Shown piece after piece: positions 51,217 to 56,665 of a DNA stretch of 64,000 nucleotides. This DNA is from Lysobacter gummosus (GTDB lineage Bacteria > Pseudomonadota > Gammaproteobacteria > Xanthomonadales > Xanthomonadaceae). Numbering within the stretch: the first letter of the stretch is position 1; each line of letters starts with the position of its first letter. The stretch is from assembly GCF_001442805.1 (NCBI RefSeq), contig NZ_CP011131.1, positions 3,596,001 through 3,660,000 of the forward strand, given 5' to 3'. The translations under genes were made by a program, and so were the position numbers. The notes under the pieces are model-generated. The model saw only the letters and a list, made by a program, of their open reading frames with translations. It had not been told where the DNA came from and made no database searches.

Positions 51217-51927
51217 ATGAGCACCCAAATGCACGATCACATCGTCAAGAGCTACGACGACGAGCAGCGCCGCCTGCTCGACGAAACCCTGCGCATGGGC
51301 GAGATGGCCGCGTCCCAGCTCGAATCCGCGCTCGACGTGGTCCAGCGCCGCGACGACAAGGCCGCCGAACGCATCATCGCCAACGATGAGGCCATCGACG
51401 CGCTGGAGCAGGAAATCAGCCACGACGTCATGAAGCTGGCCCTGCGCGGGCCGATGGCGCGGGATCTGCGCGAGATTCTGGCCGCGATCCGCATCGCCGC
51501 CGACATCGAGCGCGTCGGCGACTACGCCGCCAACGTCGCCAAGCGCTCCACCGCGCTGAACCTGTCGCCGCCGCTGCCGCACGTGGCCGGGCTGCATGCA
51601 TTGGGCACGCTGGCGGTCAAGCAGTTGCGCGACGTGCTGTCGGCCTATCGCGACAACGACATCGAGCTGGCCCAGCGCGTGCGCGAGCGCGACGCCGAGA
51701 TCGACACCGCTTACACCGGCCTGTTCCGCGAGCTGCTGACCTACATGATGGAAGACGCGCGCAGCATCACCGCCTGCACCCATCTGCTGTTCATGGCCAA
51801 GAACATCGAGCGGGTCGGCGACCACGCCACCAACATCGCGGAGAACGTCTGGTTCCTGGTCAAGGGCGAAGAACTGCTGCCGCCCCGCGAGAAGCGCGAC
51901 GACACCAACACCACCGGCGCGATCTGA
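51217..51927 (+). CDS. phoU: Phosphate signalling protein PhoU
   Basis: 236 aa with two three-helix PhoU repeats; metal-binding D/E-rich stretches are ANVA-preceding DIERVGDYAANVAK and NIERVGDHATNIAE. It links Pst to PhoR and represses the Pho response when phosphate is ample. Last gene of the pst block; phoB/phoR are outside the window. Confidence 0.97.
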   Translation: MSTQMHDHIVKSYDDEQRRLLDETLRMGEMAASQLESALDVVQRRDDKAAERIIANDEAIDALEQEISHDVMKLALRGPMARDLREILAAIRIAADIERVGDYAANVAKRSTALNLSPPLPHVAGLHALGTLAVKQLRDVLSAYRDNDIELAQRVRERDAEIDTAYTGLFRELLTYMMEDARSITACTHLLFMAKNIERVGDHATNIAENVWFLVKGEELLPPREKRDDTNTTGAI

Positions 51928-52281
51928 TCCGCCCAGCGCCCGCGGCCATCGCGGGCGCGTTCATCGGCGCCGCCGCCGCGCATCGCGGCGCACGCTGCAG
52001 TGCAGCAAGCTTCGGCGAGCGCCTGCCCGCCTCATCCCTCACCGCACCCCTCGCGCTGCGTCGTCGCCCCGGCCGCCTCCGCGCGCGCCGATCCGGTCGC
52101 GGCCAAGTCCTTGCCGCGCAAGGGCTGCAAACGGTTACATGCCGATTTCGATGAACCCGTTCTAAACGCGGCTGTCACTTCGATGCGATTCCGCGAATCC
52201 GATCGCTTCCTGCCCAACTCTTGGTACGTACACGCGACACCGCGTCGCAGTGTATTTTTACTGGACTGGGAGGAGACCCGG
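51928..52281 (+). other. Gap between phoU and the ECF sigma gene
   Basis: A nine-bp stem GCGCCCGCG/CGCGGGCGC at 51937-51959 follows phoU with no T-run and may end the pst transcript. The rest has no gene; the sigma gene promoter should lie within 52100-52260, where AAACGGTTACATGCCG stands out as less GC-rich. Confidence 0.5.
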
Positions 52282-52797
52282 ATGACGGTATTGATGGCTA
52301 ACGGAGATTTGGCCGCCGCCCGCTCGGGCGACCCGGCCGCCTTGGAGCGGGTGCTGATCCACTCGCGCCAGGATCTGCGCCGTTACGCCGAGTACCACTG
52401 CGTCATCAACGACATCGAGGACGCGGTGCAGGAAAGCCTGATCACGATCTCGCGCAAACTGCGCGACCTGCGCGTGCTCGAATGCTTCGTCTCCTGGACC
52501 TTCCGCATCGTCAAGCGCGAATGCAACCGCTTCAAGCGCGGCCGGCGCATGCTCAGCGGCGACATGATCACCGAGGACATCCTGCCCGTCGTCACGCCCG
52601 AGCCGGCCGAATGGCGCCATGATGTCGCCGCGGCCTTGGAATCGTTACCCGCGCACTATCGCCAGATCATTCTCCTGCGCGATCTTGAAGGCCTGAGCAT
52701 CGCCGAGATCGGCGACCGCCTGGGCACCACCCGCGAAGCGGTGAAGTCGCGCCTGCACCGGGCGCGCGCACTGGCGCGCGAATACCTGGATGCCTGA
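52282..52797 (+). CDS. ECF-type RNA polymerase sigma factor
   Basis: 171 aa from ATG with GGAGGAG seven bases upstream. Region 2 (about 8-80: ARSGDPAALERVLIHSRQDL; DIEDAVQESLITISRKLRDL) and region 4 (about 115-168: SLPAHYRQIILLRDLEGLSI; LGTTREAVKSRLHRARALAR) are both complete. No anti-sigma gene follows; instead the HvfA-like precursor starts 211 bp downstream on the same strand. It is the obvious candidate regulator of the operon (inference from position), which fits known ECF control of bufferin-type operons. Confidence 0.92.
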   Translation: MTVLMANGDLAAARSGDPAALERVLIHSRQDLRRYAEYHCVINDIEDAVQESLITISRKLRDLRVLECFVSWTFRIVKRECNRFKRGRRMLSGDMITEDILPVVTPEPAEWRHDVAAALESLPAHYRQIILLRDLEGLSIAEIGDRLGTTREAVKSRLHRARALAREYLDA

Positions 52798-53008
52798 CTG
52801 CATCCACGCCGCGATCGCCCCCGTATCCATTCGCACCGACATTCGCTATACCCCACCGCAACAAACCCGCTGCACGCAACACCCGCAACATCTGGATGCT
52901 TACGATTCGCCCTGGCAACAATGCAAGACCCTTACAAACGGCCCCGGCACTCCGGGCCGTCAATCCAACGGCGGGACCCCCGCCCTCATCGCCACACAGG
53001 AGTCATCC
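52798..53008 (+). promoter_or_regulatory. Leader region of the HvfABC-like operon
   Basis: 211 bp, unusually AT-rich for this genome, with CTTACAAACGGCCCCGG near 52930-52947 and an inverted repeat CGGCCC/GGGCCG at 52939-52960 shortly before the AGGAG at 52999-53003. Probably holds the operon promoter; the ECF recognition sequence is not certain. Confidence 0.45.
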
Positions 53009-53479
53009 ATGTCCAAGCAAATCAAGAAGCCCCTCGCCCTCGCTCTCGGCGCTACCCTCATCGGTGGTCTGAGCCTGTCGGCTTCCGCATTCGCGATGAG
53101 CGATCTGTCGCAGGGTTATCTGCTCGGCGCCCAGCAGGCTCCGCCGGCCGCCGAGAAGGCCGCCGACGCCAAGGCCGCCGCCGACACCGCCAAGCACGCC
53201 GAAGGCACCTGCGGCGCCGACAAGAAAGCCGGTAAGGAAGGCAGCTGCGGCGCCGACAAGAAGGCCGGCAAGGAAGGCAGCTGCGGCGCCGACAAGAAGG
53301 CCGGCAAAGAAGGCAGCTGCGGCGCCGACAAGAAGCACGCCGAAGGCAAGTGCGGCGAAGGCAAGTGCGGCGCCGACAAGAAGGCGGGCGCTGCCAAGGC
53401 CGTGAAGACCGGCGACGGCGCCGCCAAGAAGGCCGCGGAAGGCAAGTGCGGCGAAGGCAAGTGCGGCGGTTCGATCTGA
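53009..53479 (+). CDS. HvfA/bufferin-like multi-cysteine precursor peptide (substrate of the MNIO enzyme)
   Basis: 156 aa with a Sec signal peptide (MSKQIKKP, hydrophobic core, cleavage about SAFA|MSDL). After an acidic/Ala linker come eight cysteines at 68, 80, 92, 104, 115, 120, 147 and 152. The first four sit in a 12-residue repeat (EG[TS]CGADKKAGK) and the last four in EGKCG motifs, two of them as [15 protein letters not shown] is the known modification motif of Haemophilus HvfA, whose Cys become oxazolone/thioamide-type groups that bind copper; BufA peptides of Caulobacter are analogous. The linker Lys-Ala segments and repeat copy number distinguish this one. No adjacent export gene; Sec export is expected. 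Twenty bases before the MNIO gene. Confidence 0.9.
53204..53335 (+). repeat. 36-bp coding tandem repeat in the precursor gene
   Basis: Three full units (53204-53239, 53240-53275, 53276-53311) and a partial fourth, beginning GGCAGCTGCGGCGCCGACAA; units differ by only one to three bases. Each codes for one G-[TS][10 protein letters not shown] block. Confidence 0.92.
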
Positions 53480-53498
53480 TCGCGCAGCACGACTGACG

Positions 53499-54392
53499 AT
53501 GGACGGCATGCATCCACTGTCTTCGGATGCCGTCGGCCTCGGCCTGCGGCGGGCCCTGTTGGGCCCGCTGCAGTCCGCGCCGTTCGGCGCCGGCGCGCGC
53601 CGGGATTTCGACTTCCTCGAATGCGCTCCGGAAAACTGGATCGGCATCGGCGGCGTCTACGGCGAAGCGCTGCGCGAGTTGTCCTCGCGTTATCCGCTGG
53701 TCTGCCACGGCCTGTCGCTGTCGTTGGGCGGCACCGCACCGCTGGACGAAACCTTCCTGGCCCGGGTGCGGCGTTTTCTCGATGAACATCGCGTCGCCCG
53801 CTACAGCGAACATCTGAGCTACTGCAGCGACGACGGCCATCTGTACGACCTGCTGCCGATTCCGTTCACGGAAGAAGCCGTGCACCACGTCGCCGCGCGC
53901 ATCCGCCGCACCCAGGACATCGTCGGCCGCCGCATCGCGGTGGAGAACGCCTCCTACTACGCCGCGCCGCACCAGGAAATGAGCGAAATCGAGTTCACCC
54001 GCGCGATCCTGGCCGAAGCCGACTGCGATCTGCTGCTGGACGTCAACAACGTCTACGTCAACTCGATCAATCACCGCTACGACGCACGCGAATTCATCCG
54101 CGCGATGCCGCACGAACGCATCGCCTACATCCATGTGGCCGGGCATTACGACGAAGCCGACGATCTGAAAGTCGACACCCACGGCGCGCCGGTCAAGAAC
54201 GAGGTCTGGTCGCTGCTCGGCGACGCTTACCGCATGTTCGGCGCGCGCCCGACGCTGCTGGAACGCGACTTCAATTTCCCGCCGTACCAGGAACTGGTCG
54301 ATGAGCTGGACATCGTGCGCCGCGTGCTGAGCGAATCGGCCCACGCCGCCGCGCCCGAACGCGACGCCGCGCGCCGCGCCCAGCGCGCCTGA
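53499..54392 (+). CDS. MNIO-family (DUF692) multinuclear iron oxidative enzyme, HvfB/BufB-like
   Basis: 297 aa TIM-barrel enzyme. Predicted metal ligands are all present: His70 ([11 protein letters not shown]), His105 (YSEHLSYC), Glu149 (AVENASYY), Asp181 ([14 protein letters not shown]), His212 and His216 (YIHVAGH), Asp226 and His228 (VDTHG), Glu255 (LLERDFNFP). MNIO enzymes use a mixed-valent iron cluster to oxidise Cys in peptide precursors, here surely the adjacent peptide. Works with the DUF2063 partner, which starts three bases after its stop. Confidence 0.95.
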
Positions 54393-54395
54393 GCC

Positions 54396-55184
54396 ATGAA
54401 CGACGCCCCCTCGCGCCTGCGCGCGCAACAGTTCGAACTCACCCGCCATCTGCGCGATCCTAACGCCAGCCCGGCGCCGGCGGGTATCGAAGATCGGCGG
54501 CTGGGGATTTATCGCGATCTGCTGTTCAACAATATCGAAGGGTTGTTGTCGGGCAATTTCCCGGTGATCCGCAAGCTGCTCGGCGAAGAACGCTGGGAGC
54601 GGTTGGTGCGCGATTTCTATCGCGACTACCGCTGCCACACGCCGTTGTTCGCCGAGATCGCGCGTGAATTCCTGCGCTATCTGCAGGAACTCGAAGCCGC
54701 CGACGCGCCGCCGCCGGCGCCGTTCCTGCCCGAGCTGGCGCATTACGAATGGGTGGAACTGGCGCTGCAGCTCAGCGACGCGCAGGCGCCGTGCGACGAT
54801 GCCGGCATCGGCGATAGCGAACTGCTCGCGCACGCGCCGCAGCTGTCGCCGCTGGCGTGGCCGCTGGCCTACGCCTGGCCGGTGCACCGGCTGGGCCCGG
54901 ATTTCCAGCCCGATGCGCCGCCGCCCGCGCCGACCCTGGTGCTGCTGCGCCGCGAAGCCGACGGCGAGGTGCGTTTCTCCGAACTCAGCCCGCTGGCTTA
55001 TCGCCTGGTCGAACGCATCGGCGAATCGCCGCAGTTGTCCGCGCGCGAGCAACTGCAGGCGCTGGCGCAGGAAGCCGGCAGCGACGATGTCGCCGCTTTC
55101 CTCGAACTCGGCCAGGGCCTGCTGCGGCAGATGCGCGCCAGCGGCGTGATCTTTTTTCCCCGCGCGGCGAATCCTTCCGCCTGA
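54396..55184 (+). CDS. DUF2063 partner protein, HvfC/BufC-like
   Basis: 262 aa. N-terminal DUF2063 domain (about 5-100: [54 protein letters not shown]) and a C-terminal domain of the NMB-type (about 110-250). In HvfABC systems this partner binds the precursor leader and presents it to HvfB. Three bases from the MNIO gene, so cotranslated. The C-terminal [13 protein letters not shown] helix is conserved. Confidence 0.93.
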
Positions 55185-55246
55185 TCGCGGACTCTTACTC
55201 AGAGCAAGCGCCGGCGTTTCCGGCGCAGTTCTGTACGGAGTCCACC

Positions 55247-55909
55247 ATGGCCGTCCCCTGCCTCGCCTGCTTCGGCGCCCTGCGCGATCGCCTCGACGGC
55301 GTCGGGGCCTGGCTCGCACCGTTGGGCCTGCGCGCGGTGCTGGCCTGGGAGTTCTACGAATCCGGGCGCGAAAAACTGCAGGGCGAGAACTGGTTCGGCG
55401 CGGTCATGTCGAACTTCCCGTTTCCCTTCGACCGCGTGCCCGCCGGCCTGAGCTGGGGCATGGCCACCTGGTTCGAATTGCTCGGCGGCCTGGCGCTGCT
55501 GCTCGGATTGGCCACGCGCGCGGTCGCCGCCTCGTTGTTCGTGCTGACCGTGGTCGCGATCGCCGCGGTGCACTGGCCGCGCGACTGGATGGGACTGAGC
55601 CAGCTCGCGCAAGGCTATGCGATCAGCGACGCCGGCGCCGGCAACTACAAGCTGCCGCTGCTGTTCCTGGTGATGCTGTGGCCGCTGATCCTGGGCGGCG
55701 CCGGGCGCCTGAGCCTGGACGCGGCACTGGCGCGCGCGTTGCCGGCGGCGTCGGCGCGCAACGATCTGCTTGGCTGGGGTCTGGTCCTGTTGCCGTTCGG
55801 CGGGGTCGTGGCGATGCTGCTGCCGGCGCCGGGCCTGACCCTGGCCGGGCTCGGCGCGACGGCGCTGCTGATCGCGGCGCGGCCGCGCGGGCCGTTTGCT
55901 CCTGCCTGA
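55247..55909 (+). CDS. DoxX-family membrane protein
   Basis: 220 aa with four to six TM helices; conserved features are [20 protein letters not shown] and [24 protein letters not shown] lies six bases before ATG. DoxX proteins often close bufferin/HvfABC operons (sometimes called HvfD). The role may be in electron transfer or membrane handling of the product, but this is not known. Confidence 0.88.
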
Positions 55910-56020
55910 CCTGGAAGCGCGGGCCGCGGGCGAGAACCGTCGCTGACCTCTACGCCGGTTCGCGGCCGTCGCGGCGGCCGCGCGGACGAAGCCCGCGCGA
56001 CAACCTGCTAGGCTTTCGCG

Positions 56021-56665
56021 ATGACCGAAACCGGCCCCCTTCAGACCGCGACCGCCGCGGCGCCCTTCCCCACCACCCTCGCCAACCGTTTCCGCGGCTA
56101 CCTGCCGGTCGTGGTCGACGTGGAAACCGGCGGCTTCGACTGGAACAAGCACGCGCTGCTGGAAATCGCCGTGCAACCGCTGGAACTGGACGCGCAGGGC
56201 CGGATCGTGCCCGGCGAGATCGCCAGCGCCCACGTCGTCCCCGCCGCCGGCATGCAGATCGATCCCAAGTCGCTGGAAATCACCGGCATCGACATCGACC
56301 ACCCGTTCCGCGACGCCAAGCCCGAGCGCCAGGCGCTGGAAGCGGTGTTCGCGCCGGTGCGCGACGCGGTGAAGCGCCACGGCTGCCAGCGCGCGATCCT
56401 GGTCGGCCACAACGCCCATTTCGATCTCAACTTCCTCAACGCCGCGGTCGCCCGCAGCGGCCACAAGCGCAACCCGTTCCACCCCTTCAGCGTGTTCGAC
56501 ACCGTAACCCTGGCCGGCGTCGCCTACGGCCAGACCGTGCTCGCCCGCGCCGTGCAGGCCGCGGGGCTGGACTGGAACGCACAGGAAGCGCATTCGGCGG
56601 TGTACGACACTCAGCGCACGGCTGAGTTGTTCTGCAAGATCGTCAATGCGTGGCCGCGAGGCTGA
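56021..56665 (+). CDS. rnt: Ribonuclease T
   Basis: 214 aa DEDDh exonuclease that trims tRNA and other small RNA 3' ends. Catalytic acids: [19 protein letters not shown] (Asp and Glu), [11 protein letters not shown] (Asp), and [15 protein letters not shown] (His and Asp). Confidence 0.97.

Follow-up and report, generated by a model that had tools for sequence, protein, structure and literature searches.

A captophorin (HvfABCX) operon of Lysobacter gummosus, probably controlled by its own extracytoplasmic function sigma factor

We analysed a stretch of 64,000 nucleotides from Lysobacter gummosus (contig NZ_CP011131.1, positions 3,596,001 to 3,660,000; hereafter the window) and in it the five genes at 52282..55909, which encode an extracytoplasmic function (ECF) sigma factor, a Cys-rich precursor peptide, a multinuclear non-heme iron-dependent oxidative enzyme (MNIO), a DUF2063 partner protein and a DoxX protein. 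We consider it likely that they form a captophorin (HvfABCX) metallophore operon under the control of its own sigma factor. The protein families, the gene order, its conservation, the repeat rule of the precursor and a promoter-like element with its sites were established directly here.

Results

Gene families and class membership

All five open reading frames (ORFs), on the forward strand and in the order sigma factor, precursor, HvfB, HvfC and HvfX, were found by checking the sequence, and the gaps of 211, 19, 3 and 62 bp given by the original prediction proved exact; the starts of the sigma factor, precursor and DoxX genes are in-frame starts within longer, mechanically called ORFs. HvfB (53499..54392, 297 aa), the MNIO enzyme, reached 430.5 bits with NF003818 (cut-off 360) and 341.4 bits with PF05114 (cut-off 25) and has 3bww as its solved relative (E 6.7e-72). 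HvfC (54396..55184, 262 aa), a DUF2063 partner of the PME1 type, scored 300.4 bits with NF050145 (cut-off 142), exceeded the cut-offs of PF09836 and PF22106 and is related to the solved protein 3dee (E 3.3e-11). For HvfX (55247..55909, 220 aa), the DoxX-family membrane protein, the scores were 138.1 bits with NF050144 (cut-off 80) and 67.5 bits with PF07681 (cut-off 23.6). All three proteins lie above the curated NCBIfam cut-offs, with Pfam concordant for MNIO, DUF2063 and DoxX. The precursor (53009..53479, 156 aa) passed the HvfA-family repeat domain NF050137 (52.8 bits, cut-off 19.5), stayed below the narrow HvfA equivalog NF050188 (27.9 versus 95 bits) and had no family match in a Pfam search. 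The proposal of an HvfABC(X)-type operon is borne out by these matches, and the family search places the precursor on the HvfA side of the HvfA/BufA families.

By its sequence, the operon belongs to the known HvfABC or captophorin class (EGKCG, oxazolin) and not to the BufA bufferins. It has an HvfB-family MNIO, a DUF2063 partner with an RRE-type domain (RiPP recognition element; RiPP, ribosomally synthesized and post-translationally modified peptide), an EGKCG precursor directly before the MNIO gene and HvfX, which is frequent in the class and not obligatory. Residues R17-R18 and D257-F258 of HvfB sit in motifs that resemble those of the reported selectivity residues of FonB, Arg15-Arg16 and Asp249-Phe250, as judged without an alignment to FonB. 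Neither a DUF2282 or BufA2 precursor nor a BufB MNIO was detected: the NCBIfam matches of the precursor were to HvfA models only, and HvfB scored 266.1 bits against a cut-off of 310 for MNIO_BufB. With the precursor also lacking a Pfam match, the 'bufferin-type' half of the original label fits only loosely, while its HvfABC half stands.

The sigma factor

The sigma factor gene (52282..52797) encodes 171 aa with a start common to 18 genus orthologues. The protein exceeded the cut-offs of TIGR02937 (65.9 bits, cut-off 42.9) and Sigma70_r4_2 (63.3 bits, cut-off 25.7), its Sigma70_r2 match of 22.8 bits being slightly under the cut-off of 24, and it consists of sigma2 and sigma4 domains only, as ECF factors do. 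The claim that the operon has its own ECF sigma factor was upheld by these matches and strengthened by the promoter-like element upstream, described below. CorE-type factors have a Cys-rich C-terminal extension and a CXC motif in the linker, according to the portion of PMC8999054 available to us; the window's protein ends at the sigma4 domain without such an extension and has Cys at positions 40, 68 and 81 only and no CXC.

The upstream neighbour of the operon is phoU and the downstream one a gene for an RNase T-type exonuclease, and no anti-sigma gene was seen between the two. The search of the own genome covered the NrsF and zf-HC2 families: NrsF (PF06532) gave no match there while its control was detected in Caulobacter, and zf-HC2 (PF13490) gave none with a positive control, the ability of PF13490 to detect the Neisseria anti-sigma factor MseR itself being unverified. 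The system also differs from the SigF-NrsF type (ECF16), both in the missing PF06532 match and in its element, which is unlike GTAACC-N16-CGAA.

H39, C40 and C81 are invariant in an alignment of 26 sequences. In a set made up of the window's protein and the best 120 of 1367 protein hits (identity 68% or more), C40 and C81 were present in 121/121 and H39 in 120/121 sequences. This protein search is free of the bias that affects C40 across the 54 loci discussed below, where that residue was part of one of the two patterns used for the scan. C68, found in 88/121 sequences, was dropped as a sensor part. One could picture a sigma factor that senses its signal directly, without an anti-sigma factor, through H39-C40 and C81 of sigma2, which would bind copper or react with an oxidant and so set its activity. 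Such a factor would command a hybrid metallophore that holds copper in two ways, with singletons of the Ser type (as free thiols or Ser-thiooxazoles) and with thiooxazole doublets of the Lys type; we give this combined picture little credence.

A promoter-like element before sigma and hvfX

An expectation-maximization (EM) motif search of the regions upstream of sigma yielded the consensus CGMAYCC-N17-CTCTT. In the window, an ECF-type promoter-like element of this form (CGAATCC-N17-CTCTT) lies at 52194..52222 on the forward strand, 88 nt before the sigma start, and a second copy, which also came up in the loose-form scan, at 55168..55196, 79 nt before hvfX. The consensus has five exact matches in the own 6.06-Mb genome (reversed-pattern control, one), of which one precedes sigma, one precedes hvfX and three lie elsewhere.

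Across genomes, a loose form (CG[AC]A[ACT]C-N18-CTCTT) was scanned in 150 nt of upstream sequence, with 0.01 or fewer occurrences per set expected from shuffles. It was found in 19/19 genus sigma upstream regions, 87-94 nt before the start (0.0 expected), in 7/12 genus hvfX regions of the window's type and in 0/18 hvfX regions of a second operon type described below. Outside the genus, it preceded 18/36 sigma genes with hvfB, 0/9 sigma genes without hvfB and 4/18 hvfX genes. With a stricter form there were 19 hits, spread over 15/20 genus genomes (reversed-pattern control, two) and assigned as 12 before sigma, one before hvfX, two before hvfA of a sigma-less paralogue (G007 and G008), three before a DUF417 gene and one unrelated. 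The DUF417 gene was matched in 10/20 genus genomes (L149-L158), and with the final T of the pattern left free, the element stands 66-77 nt before its start in 10/10 genomes that have it.

Probably, to judge from this distribution, the sigma factor drives its own operon plus a small regulon; that it reads the element is suggested by linkage. Several observations weigh against this reading. The three other matches in the own genome lie, as read, within genes in two cases and just behind a gene in one, and with one mismatch allowed there are three matches versus four in the control. The element before hvfX overlaps the end of hvfC, so its conservation may be partly coding. At the stringency of the loose form, the element is missing from 5/12 genus hvfX regions of the window's type, from half (18/36) of the sigma genes with hvfB in other genera and from 14/18 hvfX regions there, and the sigma factors without hvfB are also more distant (57-72% identity), which makes them a weak control. 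The class assignment has its own adverse point in the precursor's score with NF050188. In 60 family genomes, 58 of them outside the genus, the strict form gave three hits, one in the own genome, versus four in the control, which is background level there; the remaining two hits resemble pieces of dispersed repeats.

Alternatively, a different sigma factor or regulator could read the element, in which case the linked sigma gene would itself be a target and its product would have a different regulon. Retention of sigma without hvfB in 9/54 loci leaves room for other targets, but the element is absent precisely there (0/9) and present in every genus locus where the two are paired (19/19), and in genus genomes it stands before the sigma-less paralogous operon and the DUF417 genes as well. 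We regard such a separate reader as quite improbable.

The DUF417 gene bears on which signal the operon answers. Its product, a membrane protein, reaches 95.7 bits with DUF417 and has a weak match to RclC, and RclC contributes to hypochlorous acid (HOCl) resistance in E. coli, as the accessible part of PMC7527725 reports. A response to oxidant stress (HOCl, peroxide) and not to copper as such would accord with the same element standing before this gene, and with Neisseria, where msrAB is under the control of a sigma-E whose operon also includes DoxX and a gene of the DUF2063 family (PMC2893595, in the text available). On the other hand, the own genome has no DUF417 match, the protein is far under the RclC cut-off (63.4 versus 275 bits) and the EGKCG peptides characterised in the available part of PMC13097082 bind copper, so we think an oxidant-driven operon rather unlikely.

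No shared sigma-type element was found directly before hvfA in the sigma-bearing loci, where the EM search gave only a hairpin-like stretch, and we therefore assume that the sigma promoter also serves hvfA. A hairpin upstream of hvfA is not claimed, though it was seen in many relatives: its z in the window is 0.31 against dinucleotide shuffles, and a set of 36 such regions has a mean z of -0.63, with 16/36 below -1 and a Stouffer value of -3.8, kinship being ignored. A block TGCAAACGGTTACA ... TAAAC (window 52125-52180), upstream of the promoter-like element, is conserved in the genus. An Rfam scan of 51900-56100 gave no match up to E 1.

Two motif classes in the precursor

The precursor begins with a Sec signal peptide (53009..53095, forward strand), for which inspection by eye predicts cleavage at SAFA|MSDL. 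It is followed by four isolated EG[TS]CG units with 12-residue spacing (53201..53323) and two tandem EGKCG doublets (53342..53371 and 53438..53467), these repeats being seen in the sequence and with Tandem Repeats Finder (TRF), which reported a 36-bp unit in 3.8 copies with 95% matches at 53201-53335. The mature peptide of 127 aa that this predicts has a calculated monoisotopic mass of 12121.8 Da, which would become 12105.7 Da with four and 12089.6 Da with eight modified sites. Eight Cys in two motif classes had been predicted, and both the count and the classes are correct: one EGTCG, three EGSCG and two EGKCG doublets. The mixed architecture, too, is real and is found clade-wide.

In 20 genus precursors, 157/157 Cys lie within E[GA]xCG motifs. 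The residue before Cys is Lys in 96/96 motifs of tandem doublets, with Ser/Thr in 0/96. In the 61 isolated motifs it is Ser in 40, Lys in 15, Thr in 5 and Gly in 1 (Ser/Thr in 45/61). This split was never matched in 5000 label shuffles within precursors, a statistic which, like the others for the repeat rule, ignores shared descent, and a motif order of optional K, then S/T/G, then K fits 20/20 precursors. Among 31 precursors outside the genus set, a count from which L112 is omitted and to which four hvfB-bearing loci contributed no precursor, 263/273 Cys are within such motifs; their doublets have Lys in 216, His in 5, Ala in 2, Gln in 2 and Ser/Thr in none, and their isolated motifs Lys in 21, Ser in 12, Asn in 2 and Gly, Ala and His in 1 each. 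As far as these sequences go, the mixed precursor follows an orderly rule, with Ser/Thr before Cys in isolated motifs only and Lys almost always in tandem ones. Among the matches listed in our search of the open-access literature, which did not extend to supplements, there was no description of EG[ST]CG units of this kind. EF-hand-like stretches were seen in 15/41 precursors of the named set with a simple pattern; a loss of the EF-hand in this lineage is not claimed.

It is plausible that the precursor has two chemically different copper-binding parts. The product may be a hybrid thiol/thiooxazole chelator, in which thiooxazoles form in the EGKCG doublets only and the isolated EG[ST]CG Cys stay free thiols; this is suggested by the sharp separation of isolated from tandem motifs and by the finding, in the part of PMC13097082 available, that FonBC modified a two-repeat and not a one-repeat peptide. 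The same text reports that, in both repeats of the two-repeat peptide, FonBC tolerated Ala, Arg and Thr at the position preceding Cys, and in the available text of PMC12538549 MmrBC still modified the remaining Cys after the other Cys of a cassette had been changed to Ala, both of which argue against such a chelator. We hold it as a tentative possibility, one that falls short of even chances. The residue tolerance of FonBC together with its failure to process a single-repeat peptide makes either outcome possible for isolated units.

Relatives and distribution

HvfC was found in all 20 genus genomes searched. The order sigma-hvfA-hvfB-hvfC is present in 19/20, so the arrangement is not due to chance; in the remaining genome (G007), fragments of this type (L046 and L146) end at contig ends. 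The 38 further HvfC loci comprise 18 of the window's type with sigma, one sigma-less paralogue (L049), one cut at a contig end (L046) and 18 of a second type. In 10/19 sigma-bearing genus loci, including the window, there is an hvfX match after the operon. The second type has the order hvfX-A'-B-C, with precursors that by eye carry EGKCG motifs and EF-hand-like stretches, and the own genome has one such operon (L033, G000:C1:3289148-3299861). Upstream of L033 and the 17 other loci of this type, a TTTGTATC-like and TGTATC-like direct repeat was seen by eye. The sigma-type element is lacking there (0/18), and the second type is likely to have another regulator.

A profile of 10 sigma orthologues led to 54 loci in named genomes of Lysobacter, Pseudoxanthomonas, Stenotrophomonas, Arenimonas, Luteimonas and metagenome-assembled genomes. 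An hvfB relative lies just downstream of sigma in 45/54, counting L112 at 35% identity, and the other nine lack one; for these nine and for L112, the reading covered forward-strand ORFs only. In L096, L101 and L103, the hvf genes are missing and sigma lies next to phoU and the exonuclease gene or in the interval that separates them; apparently these loci either lost the operon or never acquired it. In L112, a sigma factor of the same family precedes a BufA2-like precursor (34.5 bits, cut-off 60), an MNIO and a DUF2063-like ORF. This arrangement contrasts with the available text of PMC12452194, in which sigma genes are reported to accompany BufA1 but not BufA2 clusters, with none named for EGKCG clusters.

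Discussion

The operon shares with Haemophilus HvfABC, fontiphorin FonABC and gonophorin the EGKCG precursor, MNIO, DUF2063 partner and often DoxX; in contrast to them, the window's operon has half of the precursor Cys in isolated EG[ST]CG units and the ECF sigma gene first, with no anti-sigma gene seen beside it. Bulbicupramide (Microbulbifer mmrABC) shares EGKCG cassettes, and its six Cys are all modified (PMC12538549); in the part of that report at hand it differs in having three two-Cys cassettes, no Ser/Thr singletons seen and a main text that does not mention a sigma factor. More than 24,000 MNIO-PME1 loci have been reported (PMC13097082, in the text accessible to us).

Closer in control is the Neisseria rpoE operon NMB2140-NMB2145, where, according to the accessible text of PMC2893595, an autoregulated ECF sigma factor is co-transcribed with DoxX. 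From the identity of NGO1945 (3DEE) with the gonophorin partner protein we infer that it contains captophorin genes, which would make Neisseria a previous example of an EGKCG-type operon that has a sigma factor (PMC2893595 and PMC3240639, as far as available). There, however, the sigma gene lies downstream and its product is held by MseR, a zinc-binding anti-sigma (ZAS) factor, whereas the window has sigma first and a genome without a zf-HC2 match. Caulobacter SigF-NrsF, with DUF2282-DUF692-DUF2063-DoxX, is another ECF sigma factor over an MNIO operon, but has a DUF2282 (BufA1) precursor, NrsF and the promoter GTAACC-N16-CGAA in the available part of PMC3511200; in the window's genome, NrsF was not found and the element is CGMAYCC-N17-CTCTT. 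PMC3420878 and PMC8315932, available in part, are cited alongside.

We propose that stress would raise the amount of active sigma factor, which would recognise the CGMAYC-N18-CTCTT element, boost the expression of hvfABC as well as its own and start a second transcript at hvfX. HvfC would hand the precursor to HvfB, which would turn the Cys of the EGxCG motifs into 5-thiooxazoles (-4 H each), and the peptide would reach the periplasm via Sec and buffer copper there. The chemistry, export and copper role of the peptide are put forward by analogy with EGKCG relatives, for which thiooxazoles and copper binding are described in the accessible parts of PMC13097082 and PMC12538549.

We judge the kind of system to be known and its control and ordered two-class precursor to be a new variation on it; the literature search behind this judgement covered the EG[ST]CG units. 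The ECF-controlled cases of Neisseria and Caulobacter, in the sources as available, both employ an anti-sigma factor, and the search for NrsF and zf-HC2 in the window's genome came back empty. With named sites for the element and DUF417 as a candidate further target gene, the control is directly testable. The rule of Ser/Thr in isolated motifs only and Lys nearly always in tandem ones offers a clean handle on which motifs an MNIO can modify, and it bears on whether one peptide carries two kinds of copper site.

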